The translations under genes and the position numbers were made by a program. The notes under the pieces are model-generated. The model saw nothing but the letters and a program-made list of their open reading frames with translations, made no database searches and was not told the origin of the DNA. Below, one piece after another: positions 23,549 through 48,877 of a stretch of 64,000 nucleotides of DNA (the stretch's first letter is position 1; the number at the start of each line of letters is the position of its first letter). The stretch is taken from positions 62,001-126,000 of the forward strand of contig NZ_QYBC01000011.1 of the NCBI RefSeq assembly GCF_004137085.1. The letters are read 5' to 3'. Source of the stretch: Lichenibacterium ramalinae (lineage in GTDB: Bacteria; Pseudomonadota; Alphaproteobacteria; Rhizobiales; Beijerinckiaceae).

Positions 23549-25396
<1,848 letters not shown>

Positions 25397-31552: not shown

Positions 31553-32965
31553 ATGACTCACGACGCCAACCTCGCCGACTCCGCCATCGCCGACATCGCC
31601 CTCGCGGGCTGGGGCCGCAAGGAGATCGCCATCGCCGAGACCGAGATGCCCGGCCTGATGGCGGTCCGCGCCGAATACGGTCCCTCGCAGCCGCTGAAGG
31701 GCGCGCGGGTCGCGGGCTCGCTGCACATGACCATCCAGACCGCGGTGCTCATCGAGACGCTGAAGGCGCTCGGCGCCGACGTGCGCTGGGCCTCGTGCAA
31801 CATCTATTCGACGCAGGACCATGCCGCGGCGGCCATCGCCGCCACCGGGACGCCGGTCTTCGCCATCAAGGGCGAGAGCCTCACCGACTATTGGGACTAC
31901 ACCCACCGCATCTTCGACTGGGCCGACGGCGGGACGCCCAACATGATCCTGGACGACGGCGGCGACGCCACGCTGCTGATCCATCTCGGCATCCGCGCCG
32001 AGGGCGGCGACACGGCCTTCCTCGACACGGCGGGCAACGAGGAGGAGGAGGTCCTCTACGCCGCCATCAAGAAGAAGCTCGCGGCCGACCACGGCTGGTA
32101 TGGCCGCAACGGCAAGACCATCAAGGGCGTCACGGAAGAGACCACCACGGGCGTGCACCGCCTGTACAACATGGCCAAGGAGGGCAAGCTCCTGTTCCCG
32201 GCCATCAACGTCAATGATTCGGTGACGAAGTCGAAGTTCGACAACCTTTACGGCTGCCGCGAATCGCTGGTGGACGGCATCCGCCGCGGCACCGACGTGA
32301 TGATGGCCGGCAAGGTCGCCATGATCGCCGGCTTCGGCGACGTCGGCAAAGGCTCGGCCGCCTCGCTGCGCAACGCCGGCTGCCGCGTGATGGTGTCGGA
32401 GGTCGACCCGATCTGCGCGCTCCAGGCCGCCATGGAAGGCTACGAGGTCACCACGATGGAGGACGCGGCGCCCCGCGCCGACATCTTCGTCACCGCCACC
32501 GGCAACGTCGACGTCATCACGCTGGACCACATGCGGGCCATGAAGGACCGCGCCATCGTGTGCAACATCGGCCACTTCGATTCCGAGATCCAGGTCGCGG
32601 GCCTGAAGAACCTGAAGTGGCACAACGTCAAGCCGCAGGTCGACGAGGTCGAGTTCGCCGACCAGAAGCGCATCATCCTGCTGTCGGAAGGCCGCCTCGT
32701 GAACCTCGGCAACGCCACCGGCCACCCGTCCTTCGTCATGTCGGCCTCCTTCACCAACCAGACGCTCGCCCAGATCGAGCTGTGGACCAAGCCCGGCCAG
32801 TACGAGCGCAAGGTCTACGTCCTGCCGAAGAGCCTCGACGAGAAGGTGGCGGCGCTGCACCTCGACAAGATCGGCGTGAAGCTCACCAAGCTCACCGACA
32901 ACCAGGCCACCTACCTCGGCCTCGACCAGGCGGGCCCCTACAAGCCCGACCATTACCGCTACTGA
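31553..32965 (+). CDS. ahcY: Adenosylhomocysteinase
   Basis: A 470-residue NAD-dependent enzyme that splits S-adenosylhomocysteine into adenosine and homocysteine, keeping methylation reactions going. It has the substrate motif [14 protein letters not shown], the NAD loop [11 protein letters not shown], and the C-terminal [13 protein letters not shown] tail that completes the neighbouring subunit's site. The length of about 470, with an insertion near residues 150-190, is the usual bacterial long form. Two hairpins follow the stop, the second a strong terminator. Confidence 0.98.
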
Positions 32966-33266: not shown

Positions 33267-35831
33267 ATGAATTGGCGGCAGCGCCTGAAAAGGGCTGAGT
33301 CTGCGTACGATCGGCGTTGTCGAGGCGAACGTCGAAACGGCACGGACGGGCCGGCTCCAGGCGCGCGAGGGCTGACCAGGCCCCTGCTGCTCGCCGGCAC
33401 GGCTTGGGCCGCCCTGGCGGTGTCCACGGCCCAGGCGGCACCCGACCTGCAGTTCCTGTCGCTCGACGGCATGACGGACCACGGCGAGGTCGCCGGCGTG
33501 TCGCTGCTGGTGGGGCTCACGCTGTTCTCGGCCGTGACGGCCCTGCTCCACCTCGCCGGCCGCCGGCGCTGGATCGACAGCGAACGCCACCTCACGGCCG
33601 ATGTCGCGGACCTGCGGGCCCGGCTCGACCGGGCCCAGATGTTCCTGTCGGCCGAAGCCCAGATCGTCGTGGCCTGGGGCTCGTCGACCGGGGAGCCCGA
33701 CATCGAGGGCGACCTGTCGCTCGTTTCGGACGTGATGGTGCCGCGCCGCATCCTGGGCTTCGGCGCCTGGCTGCCGGCCACCTCCGCCCAGGCGCTGGAC
33801 CATGCCGTGGAGCGATTGCGCTCGCGCGGCGAAGGCTTCCGCATGGCGCTCGTCACCGTGTCGGGGCGCCATGTCGAGGCGGAAGGCCGCGCCATCGGGG
33901 GGCGCGCCATCCTGCGGCTGCGCGACGTTTCGGGCGACCGGCTCGAACTGTCGCGGCTGCGCGACCACCACGCCGCCGTCCTGGCCGAAACCGACCTGTG
34001 GCGCGCCCTGCACGACGCCCTGCCCGCCCCCGCCTGGCTGCGCGACGCCACCGGCCGCGTCACCTGGGTCAATGCCGCCTACGCCCACGCGGTCGAGACC
34101 CGCGACGGGACCGAGGCCGTGGCCCGCGGGCTCGAACTCCTGGATGCACCGGCCCGGGACGCGGCCGCCGTGGCCCGCGGCGCGGGCGAGGCCTACCGGG
34201 GCCGCGTCGGCGCCGTCGTGGCGGGCGGGCGCCACACGCTCGACGTCGTCGAGGTGCCGGGGCGGGCCGGGGCCGCCGGCGTCGCCGGAGACCTCGCCGA
34301 GATCGACGCCCTGCGCGACGACCTCGCCAAGCAGCTCGACTCGCAGGCCCGCACGCTCGACCAGCTTTCCACCGCGGTGGCGATCTTCGACCGCGCCAAG
34401 CGGCTGATCTTCCACAACACCGCCTATGCGGCCCTGTGGGGGCTCGACCCCGGCTTCCTCGACAGCCGGCCGACCGACGGCGAGATCCTCGACCGGCTGC
34501 GGGCCGAGCGCCGCCTGCCCGAACAGGCCGACTACCGGGCCTGGAAGGCCGGCCTCATGTCCAACTACCAGGCCGTGGAGACCAGCGAGGCCATCTGGTA
34601 CCTGCCGGACGGGCGCACGCTGCGCGTCGTCACCAACCCCAACCTCAAGGGCGGGGTCATCTACCTCTTCGACAATGTCACGGAGCGCTACCACCTCGAA
34701 TCGCGCTTCAACGCCCTGATCCGCGTCCAGGGCGAGACGCTGGACACGCTGAAGGAGGCCGTGGCGGTGTTCGGCACCGACGGTCGCCTGAAGCTGTTCA
34801 ACCCGGCCTTCGCCGACATGTGGCAGCTCGACACCGGCAGGCTCGCCGACCAGCCCCACATCGACGCCCTCGCGGCCCATTGCGTGCCGCAGAGCATCGA
34901 CGTCGCGGTCTGGGCCGAGGTGCGCTCCAGCGTGTCGGGGCTACACGACGCCCGCAGCGGCTTCGAGCGGCGGCTGCAGCGCCGGGACGGCTCCGTGGTG
35001 GACTGCGCCGCCGCCCCCCTGCCGGACGGCGCGACGCTGCTGACCTTCATCGACGTGACGGCGGGCGTGAACGTCGAGCGGGCCCTCAAGGAGCGCAACC
35101 AGGCCCTTCTCGATGCCGAGAAGCTGCGCAACGACTTCGTCCACCACGTGTCCTACGAGCTGCGCTCGCCGCTGACCAACATCATCGGCTTCATCCAGCT
35201 GCTCGGCGACGGCTCGGTCGGCTCGTTGAACCCCAAGCAGGTCGAATATGCCGGCTACGTGACGAAGTCCTCGGCCGCCCTGCTGGCCATCATCAACGAC
35301 ATCCTGGACCTCGCCACGATCGACATCGACGCGATGGAGCTGAACCTCGGCGCCGTCGACATCGTCCAGACCATGGAGGAGGCGGCCGAGGGCGTGCAGG
35401 ACAGGCTCGCCGAGAACGACATCCGGCTGCAGATCGTCGCCATGGACGGGATCGGGACCTTCCCGGCCGACGGCAAGCGGCTCCGGCAGGTGCTGTTCAA
35501 CCTCCTGTCCAACGCGATCGGCTTCTCCTACCCGGGCCAGACCGTGACGCTCGCGGCGCTGCGGCGGGACGACCGCGTGGTCTTCAAGGTGTCGGACCGC
35601 GGCCGCGGCATCCCGCCCGACGTCCTCGACCGCGTCTTCGACCGGTTCCGGTCGGACACCGGCGGGTCGCGCCACCGCGGCGTCGGCCTCGGCCTCTCGA
35701 TCGTCAAGTCGCTGGTGGAACTCCACCACGGCGTGGTGCAGGTCGACTCGGCGCCGAACGAGGGCACGGTGGTGACCTGCATCTTCCCCGGCTCGCAGGC
35801 CGCCCAGGGCATCGTCACCGCCGCCGAGTGA
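33267..35831 (+). CDS. divL: DivL-like PAS sensor kinase with tyrosine in place of the phospho-histidine
   Basis: An 854-residue protein with two membrane helices (about 39-57 and 76-97), PAS-like repeats and a C-terminal HisKA/HATPase core. The H-box reads VSYELRSPL: the phosphorylated histidine is replaced by Y630, as in Caulobacter DivL. The N-box (LFNLLSNAIGF), G1 (VSDRGRGIP) and G2 (GVGLGLSIVK) motifs are kept. In Caulobacter, DivL reads DivK-P and controls CckA and thus CtrA phosphorylation, acting as a scaffold rather than a kinase. Position after ahcY and before tsaE/amgK/murU/addB matches the usual alphaproteobacterial neighbourhood, although 2.5 kb is inserted before tsaE. Confidence 0.85.
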   Translation: MNWRQRLKRAESAYDRRCRGERRNGTDGPAPGARGLTRPLLLAGTAWAALAVSTAQAAPDLQFLSLDGMTDHGEVAGVSLLVGLTLFSAVTALLHLAGRRRWIDSERHLTADVADLRARLDRAQMFLSAEAQIVVAWGSSTGEPDIEGDLSLVSDVMVPRRILGFGAWLPATSAQALDHAVERLRSRGEGFRMALVTVSGRHVEAEGRAIGGRAILRLRDVSGDRLELSRLRDHHAAVLAETDLWRALHDALPAPAWLRDATGRVTWVNAAYAHAVETRDGTEAVARGLELLDAPARDAAAVARGAGEAYRGRVGAVVAGGRHTLDVVEVPGRAGAAGVAGDLAEIDALRDDLAKQLDSQARTLDQLSTAVAIFDRAKRLIFHNTAYAALWGLDPGFLDSRPTDGEILDRLRAERRLPEQADYRAWKAGLMSNYQAVETSEAIWYLPDGRTLRVVTNPNLKGGVIYLFDNVTERYHLESRFNALIRVQGETLDTLKEAVAVFGTDGRLKLFNPAFADMWQLDTGRLADQPHIDALAAHCVPQSIDVAVWAEVRSSVSGLHDARSGFERRLQRRDGSVVDCAAAPLPDGATLLTFIDVTAGVNVERALKERNQALLDAEKLRNDFVHHVSYELRSPLTNIIGFIQLLGDGSVGSLNPKQVEYAGYVTKSSAALLAIINDILDLATIDIDAMELNLGAVDIVQTMEEAAEGVQDRLAENDIRLQIVAMDGIGTFPADGKRLRQVLFNLLSNAIGFSYPGQTVTLAALRRDDRVVFKVSDRGRGIPPDVLDRVFDRFRSDTGGSRHRGVGLGLSIVKSLVELHHGVVQVDSAPNEGTVVTCIFPGSQAAQGIVTAAE

Positions 35832-36093
35832 GGCGCCCCGGCCGCACCCGCTCGACACCCGTCCGAGGCGCCGGGTGCCGCGGGCCGCGCCGGGCTGTCG
35901 GGCGGCCGCACCTTGGGACGGCGCGCCGACGTTCCGGAACGGCTCTCGGTCCGGAGATGGACCGTATCCGTCGCAGGCGAAGGCGCACGTTGGCGTGGAT
36001 GTCCGACTTAACCCCGTGAACAGGCTCGCGTGATAGGACTGGCGTGTGTCGGCGCTTGCAGGACACACGCTGGCGGGGTGGGAACGGGACGGC

Positions 36094-36837
36094 ATGGTCG
36101 GAGGATGGGCGGAAGGCACGGCCCTCGTCGGCGCCGTGGTCCTGACGGCGGCGGCAGGGTTGCGCTGGCGCGTCCGGCGGCGCGGCGCGCGGCTGATCGC
36201 GCTCGCCAGGACCGTGACGACGCGCTACGCGCGCCTGCTGAGCGTCAAGCGGAAACAGCTGGTCATCCACGACGGCTACGGCAATTACGGGCTGCAGCCC
36301 TGGATCGACCACGTCGACTACTTCATCGACAACGTCATCTTGCGCGAGGCCCGATCGCTCGGCCTCGACGCCGATGCGGCCCGGACCGGGTCGAAGCTGC
36401 GGCCGGCACTGACACGGGCCCTGCTGGCGACGTTGAGCCAAGAGGAGGAAGCCGGGACGGGTTCGGTCCACGACGCCGACATCATCTCGGGGGAGCATTA
36501 CGAGACGCTCTGCCGCAACCTGCTGCAGGAGCAGGGATGGCGGGTCGAGACCACGCCCGTCACGGGGGACCAGGGCGCCGACCTCATCGCCGAAGCCCAG
36601 GGCTGCCGGGTCGTGATCCAATGCAAGTTCTACTCGAAGCCCGTCGGCAACAAGGCCGTCCAGGAAGCCCATGCCGCCCTGGGCTTTCACGCGGGCGACT
36701 GGGCCGCCGTCGTCTCCAATGCCAGCTTCACCCGGTCGGCTCACGAATTGGCGCGGGCCAACGATGTCGTGCTGCTCCACCACGACCAACTGGCGGACCT
36801 CGGCCGGCTCATCCGCCAGGCCGAAGCCCGCGCCTGA
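36094..36837 (+). CDS. Membrane-anchored Mrr-type restriction endonuclease-like protein
   Basis: A 247-residue protein with one membrane helix near the N-terminus (about residues 8-25), a basic stretch, a middle region of no known domain and a C-terminal Mrr_cat fold. The catalytic set is visible: D163 (GADLI), Q176 and K178 (IQCKFYSKPVG), preceded by SGEHYETLCRNLL. Mrr-type nucleases cut methylated or foreign DNA; TM-anchored forms are common and poorly understood. The start is uncertain: a GTG at 36046 would add 16 residues. No methylase is nearby. Confidence 0.75.
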   Translation: MVGGWAEGTALVGAVVLTAAAGLRWRVRRRGARLIALARTVTTRYARLLSVKRKQLVIHDGYGNYGLQPWIDHVDYFIDNVILREARSLGLDADAARTGSKLRPALTRALLATLSQEEEAGTGSVHDADIISGEHYETLCRNLLQEQGWRVETTPVTGDQGADLIAEAQGCRVVIQCKFYSKPVGNKAVQEAHAALGFHAGDWAAVVSNASFTRSAHELARANDVVLLHHDQLADLGRLIRQAEARA

Positions 36838-37501: not shown

Positions 37502-37765
37502 TCAGGACGCGCTGGGAGCCACGGGCCGCGGGGGCATCATCGGCTTGCGCTTGGGCGCAGGCAGGAGCCCTTCACGCTGAGCCTGCTTCCGGGCCAACTT
37601 CCGCACGCGGCGGATGGCCTCGGCCCGCTCGCGGGCGCGCTTCTCGGACGGCTTCTCGTATTCGGCGCGGCGCTTCATCTCACGGAACACGCCCTCACGC
37701 TGGAGCTTGCGCTTCAGCGCCTTGAGAGCCTGCTCGATGTTGTTGTCGCGAACCAGAATCTGCAA
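37502..37765 (-). CDS. rpsU: 30S ribosomal protein S21
   Basis: An 87-residue S21 with [18 protein letters not shown] at the start, [20 protein letters not shown] in the centre and a basic, proline-rich tail. S21 helps mRNA recruitment on the small subunit. The start is TTG (LQILVRDN), placed after AAAGGAA; there is no ATG or GTG near this position, and the longer frame upstream is unrelated. Alphaproteobacteria often carry several rpsU copies. It lies 56 bases downstream of cspA on the same strand. Confidence 0.93.
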
Positions 37766-37821
37766 CGATAGTTCCTTTCTTGCGCCCGGGCACGGCCCCA
37801 TGTGGGCCGGAGGCTCGATGA

Positions 37822-38034
37822 TTATTCGGCCGCCTGAAGCTTGTCGGCCGACACCTTGCCGGAACGGCGATCGGTGGTCAGTTCGAAGCTGATCTTCTGG
37901 CCTTCGCGAAGATCGTTGAAGCCGGCACGCTCCACCGCGCTGATGTGCACGAACACGTCCTTGGTGCCGTCGTCGGGCTGGATGAAACCGTAACCCTTCT
38001 GGGCATTGAACCACTTCACGGTGCCGGTGCTCAT
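37822..38034 (-). CDS. cspA: Cold shock protein, CspA family
   Basis: A 70-residue single cold-shock domain with both RNA-binding motifs: KGYGFIQ (RNP1) and VFVHISA (RNP2). It binds single-stranded RNA and DNA and removes secondary structure. A promoter at 38176-38204 would give a leader of about 135 bases, the kind of long 5' leader that controls cspA translation in the cold. rpsU follows on the same strand, and CspA-rpsU neighbours are common in Rhizobiales. Confidence 0.95.
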
Positions 38035-38175
38035 GACCGAACCCTTTCAATTCCAAAGTGTGGTACGCGGCGTCGTGTGCCGGCGCAACCAATCGTCCGG
38101 GGGGAGTTCGTAAGCAGGCGTCCGAGAACATCGGCACGCGGAGGCAAAGTCGTCGGCCTTCGATCAGTGACGCGC

Positions 38176-38204
38176 AGATAAGGACCGTGCCGGCGGAATG
38201 TCAA
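38176..38204 (-). promoter_or_regulatory. Sigma-70 promoter of cspA
   Basis: On the minus strand TTGACA (38204-38199) and TTATCT (38181-38176) are 17 bases apart. Transcription would begin near 38169 and give a leader of about 135 bases before cspA. The rest of the gap up to the tsaE start (38205-38383) holds no gene. Confidence 0.7.
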
Positions 38205-38383
38205 CCTTTTCCCCCTGCAGCGGAGCCCGTTTTCGCGCGCGAAAGCTGCGGTCCCGAGCACCGGGACGGCGCGACCGCTGGCCTGGTTTACCCTCCGTTC
38301 ACCATGATTGTCCATGGTGGGACCCTCGTGTAGTGACGGGCCGCGGGCGGGTGCCCGAGCCGGCATCCGGGGAGTTCGACGGT

Positions 38384-39946
38384 TTGGCCAATCGAGCGGC
38401 ATCGCAGGCGGTGTGGTCGGTGCTCCTGCCGACGCCGGACGAGACGGTGCGCTTCGCCGCCCGGATCGCCGATTTCCTGCGGGCGGGCGACCTCGTCACC
38501 CTGTCGGGCGACCTCGGCGTCGGCAAGACCACCTTCGCCCGGGCCCTCGTGCGCCACCTCGCCGGCGAGCCGGAGCTCGACGTGCCGAGCCCCACCTTCA
38601 CGCTGATGCAGCTCTACGACACGCCGGCCTTCCCGGTGGTGCACGCCGACCTGTACCGGATCCGCTCGGCCGACGAACTCGCCGAACTCGGCTGGGACGA
38701 GGCGTCGGACGGCGCGCTGCTCATCGTCGAATGGGCGGAGCGCATCGGCGACGCCCTGCCCGAGGACCGGCTCGACGTCACCATGTCGATCGATCCGGAC
38801 CAACCCGAGACGGCGCGCACCGCCACCGTGACGGGCTTCGGCCATTTCTCCGCCCGCATCGCCCAGACGGAAGCCGTGGAATCGCTGCTCAAGGCGGCCG
38901 GCTTCGCCGACGCCACCCGAACCCATCTCACGGGCGATGCTTCCACCCGGGCCTACGAGCGCCTCGGCCTCCCCGATGGCCGCACCGCCCTCTTCATGAC
39001 CTCGCCGCCCCGCGCCGACGCGCCCGTGGTCCGCTTCGGCAAGCCCTATCACGAGATCGCCCGGCTCGCCGGCGACATCCGGCCCTTCCTGGCCATGGAT
39101 GCCGCGCTGCGTCGCCAGGGCGTCTCGGCCCCGGACGTCTACGCGGCCGACGCCGCCGCCGGGATCGCCGTGCTCGAGGACCTGGGATCGGAGCCCTTCG
39201 TCGACGCCGAAGGTCCCATCCCGGAGCGCTACCTCGAAGCCGTGGCGCTGCTGGCCCGGCTGCATGCCACCGACCTGCCCGCGACGGTGCCACTCGGCGA
39301 CGGCAGCTACGCCATCCCGCCCTACGACCTCGACGCGCTGCAGGTCGAGGCCGAGCTCGTGATCGACTGGTACGCTCCCCACATCGGCCGCATCGCCATC
39401 CCGGCCAGCGGCCGCAACGCCTTCATGGGCATCTGCAGCCGGCTCTTCGGCGAGGTCGTGGGCCGGGACACGACCTGGACGCTGCGCGACTATCATTCGC
39501 CGAACCTCATCTGGCTCGACGGGCGCGAAGGCCTGGCCCGCGTCGGCGTCATCGACTTCCAGGACTGCGTGCTCGGCCACCCGGCCTACGACGTCGCCGC
39601 CCTGCTGCAGGACGCGCGCGTCACGGTCCCGGACGCCCTGGAGCTGAAGCTGCTCGGCGCCTATGCGCAGCTGCGCGCCAGCATGGATCCGGCCTTCGAC
39701 ATGGCGGGCTTCGTGCGCGCGTACGCCATCCTCGGCGCCCAGCGGGCCACGAAGCTCCTCGGCATCTTCGCCCGGCTCGACAAGCGCGACGGCAAGCCGC
39801 AATATCTCGCCATGCTGCCGCGCATCGAAGGCTATCTGATCAAGGGGCTGGCCCATCCCGCCCTGGCGGAACTGCGCGGCTGGTACGAGACCTACATGCC
39901 CCGGGTGCTGGCGCCCCGGCCGGCACCGGCCCGCGAGACGGCCTGA
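38384..39946 (+). CDS. Fused TsaE ATPase and AmgK-type sugar kinase
   Basis: A 520-residue fusion. Residues 1 to about 155 are TsaE, the ATPase that supports threonylcarbamoyl-adenosine (t6A) formation in tRNA, with Walker A around K48 (GDLGVGKTTFAR) and SPTFTLMQLYD. From about 165 to the end is an aminoglycoside-phosphotransferase fold of the AmgK type, which phosphorylates MurNAc/GlcNAc at C1; RDYHSPNLIWL is the catalytic loop and IDFQDCVLGHPAYD the metal site. There is no stop or frame change between them. The TTG start has GGGGAG nine bases upstream; an in-frame GTG at 38333 is the alternative. murU follows two bases later. Confidence 0.85.
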   Translation: MANRAASQAVWSVLLPTPDETVRFAARIADFLRAGDLVTLSGDLGVGKTTFARALVRHLAGEPELDVPSPTFTLMQLYDTPAFPVVHADLYRIRSADELAELGWDEASDGALLIVEWAERIGDALPEDRLDVTMSIDPDQPETARTATVTGFGHFSARIAQTEAVESLLKAAGFADATRTHLTGDASTRAYERLGLPDGRTALFMTSPPRADAPVVRFGKPYHEIARLAGDIRPFLAMDAALRRQGVSAPDVYAADAAAGIAVLEDLGSEPFVDAEGPIPERYLEAVALLARLHATDLPATVPLGDGSYAIPPYDLDALQVEAELVIDWYAPHIGRIAIPASGRNAFMGICSRLFGEVVGRDTTWTLRDYHSPNLIWLDGREGLARVGVIDFQDCVLGHPAYDVAALLQDARVTVPDALELKLLGAYAQLRASMDPAFDMAGFVRAYAILGAQRATKLLGIFARLDKRDGKPQYLAMLPRIEGYLIKGLAHPALAELRGWYETYMPRVLAPRPAPARETA

Positions 39947-39948
39947 CC

Positions 39949-40677
39949 GTGGCGGGCTTCGTCCCAGCGGCCGCCATGGTCTTCGCCGCCGGCCTCGGCA
40001 GCCGCATGAGGCCGGTGACCGACACGCTGCCCAAGCCCCTGGTGCGGATCGCCGGCCGCGCCATGCTGGACCACATGCTGGATCGGCTCGCCGACGCCGG
40101 AGTGTCGCGCGCCGTCGTCAACGTGCACCACCTCGCCGACCAGATCGAACGCCACGTCGCGGGCCGCGCCGCGCCGGCCGTCACGGTGTCGGACGAGCGC
40201 GCCCGCCTGCTCGACCAGGCGGGCGGCATCCGCCGCGCCCTGCCCCACATCGGGGCGGACGCCTTCCTGGTGTGCAACACCGACGCCGTGTGGATCGCGG
40301 GCCCACGCCCCAACCTGCCCCGGCTCTTCGCCGACTGGGACCCCGACCGCATGGACGTCCTGCTGCTCGTGGCCGATGCCGCCACCAGCATCGGCGTCGA
40401 CTGGCCGGGCGACTTCCACATGGATCCCGAGGGGCGCCTCGTGCGCCGGGCCGAGGGCGACGTCGCGCCCTTCGTCTATGCCGGGGTCGGCGTCATGAAG
40501 CCCCAGGCCTTCGCGGACCTCGCCGACGGCACGCCCGTGCGCCTCGCCCCTTACTTCTTCGCGGCCGCCGAGCGGGGTCGCCTCTTCGCCACCCGGCTCG
40601 ACGGCCGCTGGCTCCATGTCGGCACCCCGGACGCCATCGCCGAAGCCGAGGCGGCGATCCGGGAATCGGTCGAATAG
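39949..40677 (+). CDS. murU: MurU-type nucleotidyltransferase (MurNAc-1-P uridylyltransferase)
   Basis: A 242-residue NTP transferase with the signature MVFAAGLGSRMRPVTDTLPK, then LVCNTDAVW for the metal site. In Pseudomonas and alphaproteobacteria AmgK and MurU turn recycled MurNAc into UDP-MurNAc, by-passing MurA and giving fosfomycin tolerance. The GTG start is two bases after the tsaE::amgK stop, so it is coupled; the ATG at 39976 is a later alternative. Its neighbours support MurU rather than a sugar-1-phosphate enzyme of another pathway. Confidence 0.87.
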   Translation: MAGFVPAAAMVFAAGLGSRMRPVTDTLPKPLVRIAGRAMLDHMLDRLADAGVSRAVVNVHHLADQIERHVAGRAAPAVTVSDERARLLDQAGGIRRALPHIGADAFLVCNTDAVWIAGPRPNLPRLFADWDPDRMDVLLLVADAATSIGVDWPGDFHMDPEGRLVRRAEGDVAPFVYAGVGVMKPQAFADLADGTPVRLAPYFFAAAERGRLFATRLDGRWLHVGTPDAIAEAEAAIRESVE

Positions 40678-48523: not shown

Positions 48524-48877
48524 GTGTCGAAGCGGGTTCTGGTGGTCGAGGACGACCCCATGCTCAGGATGGACGCCGCCACCATGCTGGAGGAAGCGGG
48601 TTTCGACGTCGTGCAACTGGAGACCGGGGACAGCGCGCTGGCCTACGTGCTGGAACAATCGGAGAGCGTCGGCGCGGTCTTCTCGGACGTCCAGATGCCG
48701 GGCGACACCGACGGGCTCGACCTCGCCGCCTATATCGCCATGAACTGGCCCGCCATCACCATCGTGCTGACCTCGGGCCGCGTCCACCCGACGCGCGACC
48801 TGCCCGACAACATCAAGTTCGTGTCCAAGCCCTGGATCCCCGAGGAAGTGCTGGCGGCCCTCACGGGCGCGCTGTGA
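48524..48877 (+). CDS. Single-domain response regulator
   Basis: A 117-residue receiver with no output domain. E9/D10/D11 form the acidic pocket, D55 (SDVQMPGDTDG) is the phosphoacceptor, and VSKPW carries the conserved lysine. Such proteins act as phosphate shuttles or by binding a partner. The GTG start follows AGGAGG by five bases. No kinase is adjacent; the PDC kinase at 23.5-25.4 kb is an orphan too, but nothing ties them together. The gene is divergent from the LysR gene. Confidence 0.88.
   Translation: MSKRVLVVEDDPMLRMDAATMLEEAGFDVVQLETGDSALAYVLEQSESVGAVFSDVQMPGDTDGLDLAAYIAMNWPAITIVLTSGRVHPTRDLPDNIKFVSKPWIPEEVLAALTGAL

Follow-up and report, generated by a model that had tools for sequence, protein, structure and literature searches.

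An orthologue of DivL with the usual acceptor tyrosine in Lichenibacterium ramalinae, and histidine at the same position in several groups of related DivL proteins

We analyzed a 64,000-nucleotide stretch of the Lichenibacterium ramalinae genome (contig NZ_QYBC01000011.1), called the window below, in which a gene for a PAS domain protein with a histidine kinase fold lies between ahcY and a tsaE-containing frame (Table 1). Pfam searches of its product matched PAS_7 in two stretches, PAS_8 in three, and PAS_4 in three, and this PAS region, which extends up to residue 599, is followed by HisKA and HATPase_c domains, the architecture found in DivL. An earlier reading made from the sequence alone had described the protein as DivL-like, with two helices in an extended N terminus. 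One helix is clear, at residues 73 to 99, and that part of the prediction held, while the second, at about residues 39 to 58, fell below the hydropathy threshold that we used. Residues 1 to 60 are poorly conserved. Compared with Caulobacter DivL, which we take to be about 769 amino acids long against 854 here, the window protein has an N-terminal region that is poorly conserved even inside its own family.

Table 1. Features of the divL locus, in window coordinates.
Feature	Position	Strand	Evidence or remark
ahcY, upstream neighbour	31553..32965	+	PF05221, 488.7 bits; conserved in relatives
divL	33267..35831	+	854-aa PAS-HisKA-HATPase pseudokinase; ATG at 33267, stop ends at 35831
Predicted membrane helix, residues 73-99	33483..33563	+	Kyte-Doolittle, 19-residue window, maximum 2.12
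PAS match, residues 245-273	33999..34085	+	PF00989, 23.4 bits
PAS_7 domain, residues 364-476	34356..34694	+	PF12860, 83.1 bits
PAS_4 domain, residues 492-599	34740..35063	+	PF08448, 40 bits
HisKA/DHp domain, residues 621-686	35127..35324	+	PF00512, 52 bits (cut-off 26.9)
Y630 codon (TAC), phosphoacceptor position	35154..35156	+	Aligned with Caulobacter DivL Y550
R633 codon	35163..35165	+	Aligned with Caulobacter DivL R553 (DivK~P docking, accessible text of PMC4211667)
HATPase_c/CA domain, residues 735-841	35469..35789	+	PF02518, 97.2 bits; N, G1, F, and G2 boxes present
Mrr_cat endonuclease-domain gene between divL and tsaE	36046..36837	+	PF04471, 85.5 bits
TsaE + APH frame, downstream neighbour	38198..39946	+	PF02367, 117.5 bits; PF01636, 72 bits; conserved; start codon uncertain
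Nucleotidyltransferase, downstream neighbour	39937..40677	+	PF12804, 59.6 bits; PF00483, 50.1 bits; conserved; start codon uncertain

The neighbourhood has some features of its own. The Mrr_cat gene has a 72% relative at a locus of the same genus (L139) and no known part in DivL function, and within the limited flanks available no relative was present at 10 other family loci, at the 78 class loci, or at 28 family loci. Also between divL and tsaE, on the opposite strand (37502 to 38137), is a frame of uncertain start with a ribosomal protein S21 domain near its end, and the TsaE and APH-type phosphotransferase domains share a single frame in which they are apparently fused. Elsewhere, the window holds a further HisKA kinase (24068 to 24274, minus strand, in a 632-aa frame) and a receiver-domain protein (48536 to 48856, plus strand, in a 212-aa frame), and no match to CtrA-box consensus patterns was found in it.

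At the phosphoacceptor position, the codon reads TAC, so that the H-box is VSYELRSPL with Y630 where an active histidine kinase carries a phosphorylatable histidine, and the ATP-site boxes are intact (N745/N749, D777-x-G-x-G, F791, and G805-x-G-x-G), both as first described. A scan for the motif H-[ED]-x-[RKN]-[TSN]-P found no genuine histidine H-box anywhere in the 854-aa protein, and the only histidines in residues 601 to 660 are H626 and H627. Y630 is not a sequencing slip, since tyrosine is also found in the DivL of a same-genus genome (85% identity over residues 1 to 854) and in 52 of 59 family members, with both codons in use (TAC in 38 and TAT in 14 of the 52, window included). Among the 51 HisKA matches of the window genome we fetched 30, the window locus being one; the other 29 have a histidine H-box by motif in 27 cases and no motif in 2.

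Several comparisons bear out the proposal that this protein is a DivL orthologue. Its best match among solved structures is Caulobacter DivL (4q20, 5e-41, with the runner-up at 4e-27), and in the reverse comparison, made against the 30 of 51 kinase loci of the window genome, the 4q20 core scored the window open reading frame at 147 bits and the next locus at 124. In the alignment with 4q20, Y630 falls on Y550. A DivL match at E<=1e-60 was obtained in 59 of the 60 genomes sampled from the family and in 78 of the 144 sampled from the class (both samples include the window genome); the class search scored at most six candidates per genome at this threshold, so that the 66 genomes without a match need not lack DivL. 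No second match at E<=1e-60 was seen among the candidates scored in the window genome. The locus is shared as well: by Pfam, the window has ahcY, tsaE, and the nucleotidyltransferase gene, and ahcY or tsaE was present in the flanks of all 28 family loci compared (out of 59) and in the fetched flanks of 60 of the 78 class loci (ahcY in 47, tsaE in 48, and the nucleotidyltransferase in 38, counts that record presence rather than order and include some contigs that end early). Finally, in a tree of 128 DivL cores and 28 generic kinase cores of the window genome, two of which were probably entered twice, none of the 28 generic rows fell inside the DivL clade (clade support, 0.677). Thus, the window open reading frame is an ordinary DivL orthologue and adds DivL to one more genome. 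No NCBIfam model reached its cut-off for this protein among its best 25 matches. DivJ and PleC are kinases of the same fold that act on DivK and have a catalytic histidine; the DivJ model NF050805 scored the window protein at 118.5 bits against a cut-off of 1000.

The sequence-only reading also held that DivL controls CckA and CtrA in this lineage, and we looked for the partners in the genome. All are encoded: CtrA (NF045991, 420.9 bits; cut-off, 350), ChpT (NF046018, 302.9 bits; cut-off, 240), CckA (NF046020, 1130.4 bits; cut-off, 1000), and DivK, a short receiver that matched Caulobacter DivK 1m5t at 1.2e-57 (next, 1.6e-21) and lies directly ahead of a presumably PleD-like frame that carries two receiver domains. 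Because cckA, chpT, ctrA, and divK are encoded, such control is plausible. In the family sample (60 genomes, including the window's), ChpT was found in 60, CtrA in 59, and DivL in 59; in the Rhodospirillales, divL, cckA, and chpT are reported in only 27 to 36% of genomes (accessible text of PMC8116508), and we do not read the two sets of counts as conflicting.

The docking and switch residues tested in Caulobacter DivL, R553, T557, Y562, H579, and A601 (PMC4211667, in the passages available), align with R633, T637, F642, Y661, and A683 of the window protein. The phenylalanine in place of Y562 and the tyrosine in place of H579 are common to most relatives (71 and 73 of 79 class rows, respectively), and in the family (n=59) R633 is conserved in 58, Y661 in 59, A683 in 57, F642 in 53, and T637 in 50, with asparagine in 8. 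The T637 position, whose counterpart T557 is important for DivK in Caulobacter, is asparagine in 58 of 79 class rows and threonine in the window. The class sample comprises 79 rows, the 78 loci plus the window's, so that one genome enters twice. Of the 12 class DivLs from genomes without a DivK match of at least 45% identity, 7 do not have R633 (another residue in 6, a gap in 1), against none of the 67 from genomes with such a match (Fisher test, 2.7e-7, uncorrected for kinship); here and below, the 45% and 60% thresholds for DivK presence are our own choice. This loss of R633 only where a DivK match is missing agrees with the statement, in the accessible part of PMC2877005, that the kinase part of DivL goes with DivK. 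At one class locus (L104, genome G063), the DivL-like frame is 648 aa long and lacks a kinase core; its flanks contain ahcY and tsaE, and its genome gave no DivK match. DivLs of this kind are described in PMC2877005 (accessible part).

According to the available text of PMC4211667, Caulobacter DivL favours the CckA-ChpT-CtrA relay as long as it is free, the relay is inhibited when DivK~P occupies the DHp domain, and the protein had no autokinase activity in vitro and bound an ATP analogue weakly. The window protein is like Caulobacter crescentus DivL (4q20) in its acceptor tyrosine, its PAS array and DHp-CA core, its docking residues, and its companions CckA, ChpT, CtrA, and DivK. Because the docking residues are kept and R633 tracks DivK, we read it, with a probability of roughly 85%, as a DivL that would work as in Caulobacter, as a DivK~P sensor controlling CckA. 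By analogy, it would be a dimer anchored in the membrane, with a PAS array and a DHp/CA core that act without substrate phosphorylation; when free, it would raise CckA kinase activity and thereby CtrA phosphorylation via ChpT, and DivK~P docking on the DHp helix around Y630 and R633 would inhibit the CckA relay. We infer from the comparison with Caulobacter that the window protein lacks kinase activity, binds DivK~P, controls CckA, and inserts into the membrane. Its ATP boxes are well kept even though the Caulobacter counterpart needs none, which may leave room for ATP binding.

How constant is the acceptor tyrosine? DivL homologues are described as conserving it throughout, except for alanine in Magnetospirillum magneticum (PMC4211667, as far as its text was available). 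In our class sample (n=79), the acceptor was tyrosine in 65 rows, histidine in 4, phenylalanine in 2, and valine, threonine, serine, glycine, lysine, glutamine, and leucine in one each, with one gap; in the family (n=59), it was tyrosine in 52, phenylalanine in 6, and histidine in 1. The family phenylalanine rows occupy three separate places in the tree. Three of them (L239, L240, and L242) also have damaged G boxes, two (L110 and L223) lack N745, and one (L161) keeps all boxes. The tyrosine had been taken as the hallmark of DivL, and this claim did not stand: because orthologues at the same locus bear histidine or phenylalanine, and others valine or serine, the acceptor tyrosine, on these alignments, is usual in DivL and not a strict or reliable hallmark. 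The loss of the tyrosine reflects the loss of DivK only in part: at the 45% threshold, the acceptor is a residue other than tyrosine in 7 of the 67 rows whose genomes have DivK and in 7 of the 12 whose genomes have none (Fisher test, 0.0006, uncorrected for kinship), and at 60% the counts are 7 of 64 and 7 of 15, respectively (Fisher test, 0.004).

Three other explanations of the window protein were considered. The one that survives best, which we nonetheless consider improbable, is that DivL is kept but controls CckA independently of DivK, in a manner particular to its lineage. DivK is dispensable and DivL essential in Hyphomonas neptunium (PMC7200025, in the accessible text), which suggests that lineages may differ at the DivK step, and the family varies at position 630 while keeping CtrA and ChpT; against this, the window genome encodes DivK, and the docking residues are kept in the window protein. 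It is much less probable that Y630 is a true phosphoacceptor and the protein an active tyrosine autokinase, a role for which the intact N, G1, F, and G2 boxes speak, as does a glutamate beside the acceptor that 50 of the 59 family members retain; six of the 59 have phenylalanine instead, one of them with all boxes and two with all but N745, and Caulobacter DivL showed neither autokinase activity nor more than weak ATP-analogue binding in the assays cited above. Very improbable is a PAS kinase paralogue, distinct from DivL, whose histidine was lost independently. The protein shares only 38.5% identity with the core of Caulobacter DivL and matches many generic kinase models, but this is outweighed by the conserved neighbours, the partial reciprocal best match, the DivL clade free of the generic kinases compared, and the lack of a second match at E<=1e-60 among the candidates scored in the genome. 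A DivK~P sensor controlling CckA remains our preferred reading of the window protein.

The histidine cases are concentrated outside the window's family. In family f34, which we take to be Sneathiellaceae, DivL was obtained from 24 of 25 genomes and the H-box was readable in 23, all of which have histidine (22 from one genus and 1 from a second), encoded by both CAT and CAC. These proteins (L245-L272 and L298-L306) have a genuine histidine H-box with intact catalytic boxes; 21 aligned Sneathiellaceae DivLs, together with L076 and L080, keep E, R, N, D-G-G, F, and G-G-G. Like the window protein, the Sneathiellaceae DivLs (L080, L245, and others) share the ahcY-divL-tsaE locus, the PAS-DHp-CA arrangement, and the equivalents of R633, Y661, and A683, and unlike it, they carry an acceptor histidine with all boxes kept. 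The order ahcY-divL-tsaE-nucleotidyltransferase was found at 9 of 9 Sneathiellaceae loci fetched with wide flanks, and all three neighbours are in the flanks of L076 and L080. ChpT was found in 22 of 25 Sneathiellaceae genomes and in 18 of 18 good genomes, and DivK in both genomes checked (74 and 77% identical). The Sneathiellaceae core scored 154.7 bits against kinase chains, presumably of the HK853 type, and 148 bits against DivL 4q20.

In a second family, f78, DivL was found in 18 of 18 genomes, with tyrosine in 6 and histidine in 12. Two of the histidine rows, from genus g79, have intact boxes, and in the other ten, from genus g178, the N, G1, and G2 boxes have degraded; the g178 DivLs (L280-L289 and L291-L295) thus combine an acceptor histidine with decayed ATP boxes, the reverse of the window state. 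Gene order was conserved at all five g178 loci fetched, and the conserved neighbours were not found in the flanks of g79 locus L121. Single further cases are L235, from a 430-contig draft genome of the window's family, and L109, which has a decayed CA domain and neither ahcY nor tsaE in its flanks. In the literature covered (titles, abstract openings, and passages), no report of a natural histidine-bearing DivL was found.

Counted without direction, at least five changes between histidine and other residues are needed on both a 174-row FastTree and a 48-row IQ-TREE phylogeny. Sneathiellaceae groups with the tyrosine-bearing L079 (98/98), its two genera joining at 89/32 only; g79 groups with tyrosine-bearing f78 rows (86/72), and g178 groups with the tyrosine-bearing L279 (99/90). 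A single origin of histidine by descent for the three main clades was rejected by AU tests of constrained trees (p-AU, 0.017 for Sneathiellaceae plus g79, 0.005 with g178 added, and 0.006 for g79 plus g178), values that are somewhat optimistic because the groups were named after the tree was seen and the tests used 48 of 174 rows under plain LG+G4. A swap of the kinase core was rejected as a source as well: these are DivL cores, not imports, the L080 core shares 55 to 59% identity with the six best DivLs that lie outside its clade and 39.8% with the best-scoring generic kinase of the window genome. In a core tree rooted with an outgroup, the histidine clades with intact boxes lie inside the tyrosine DivLs, with low to moderate supports on the path. 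Since parsimony places tyrosine at the root of the 174-row tree, a change from tyrosine to histidine by one base appears the simplest reading, and retention of an ancestral histidine seems less likely.

A natural, fixed histidine is worth noting because, in Caulobacter, the Y550H form of DivL gains phosphate only when both DivK~P and ATP are present, and cells that carry it are impaired in growth and shape (PMC4211667, in the text available). Tentatively, and with rather less than even confidence, we propose that the acceptor position is labile and has been re-armed with histidine on several separate branches. Sneathiellaceae DivL would then be a naturally occurring histidine kinase that DivK~P stimulates, a wild counterpart of Caulobacter Y550H, and the g178 proteins, with their decayed ATP site, would be phosphotransfer-like or inert DHp domains. 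The window protein shows the usual tyrosine state, in a family with phenylalanine and histidine exceptions.

On these comparisons, the recurrent histidine in relatives, rather than the window gene, is probably the interesting part. Whole lineages have histidine at the same locus, against the near-universal tyrosine described in the accessible text of PMC4211667. Natural tyrosine, phenylalanine, and histidine versions are thus on offer for testing why the histidine was given up. If the histidine-bearing DivLs are active, a pseudokinase would be able to regain in nature the function that it had lost, and the CtrA pathway of such bacteria would receive one more input from a kinase.
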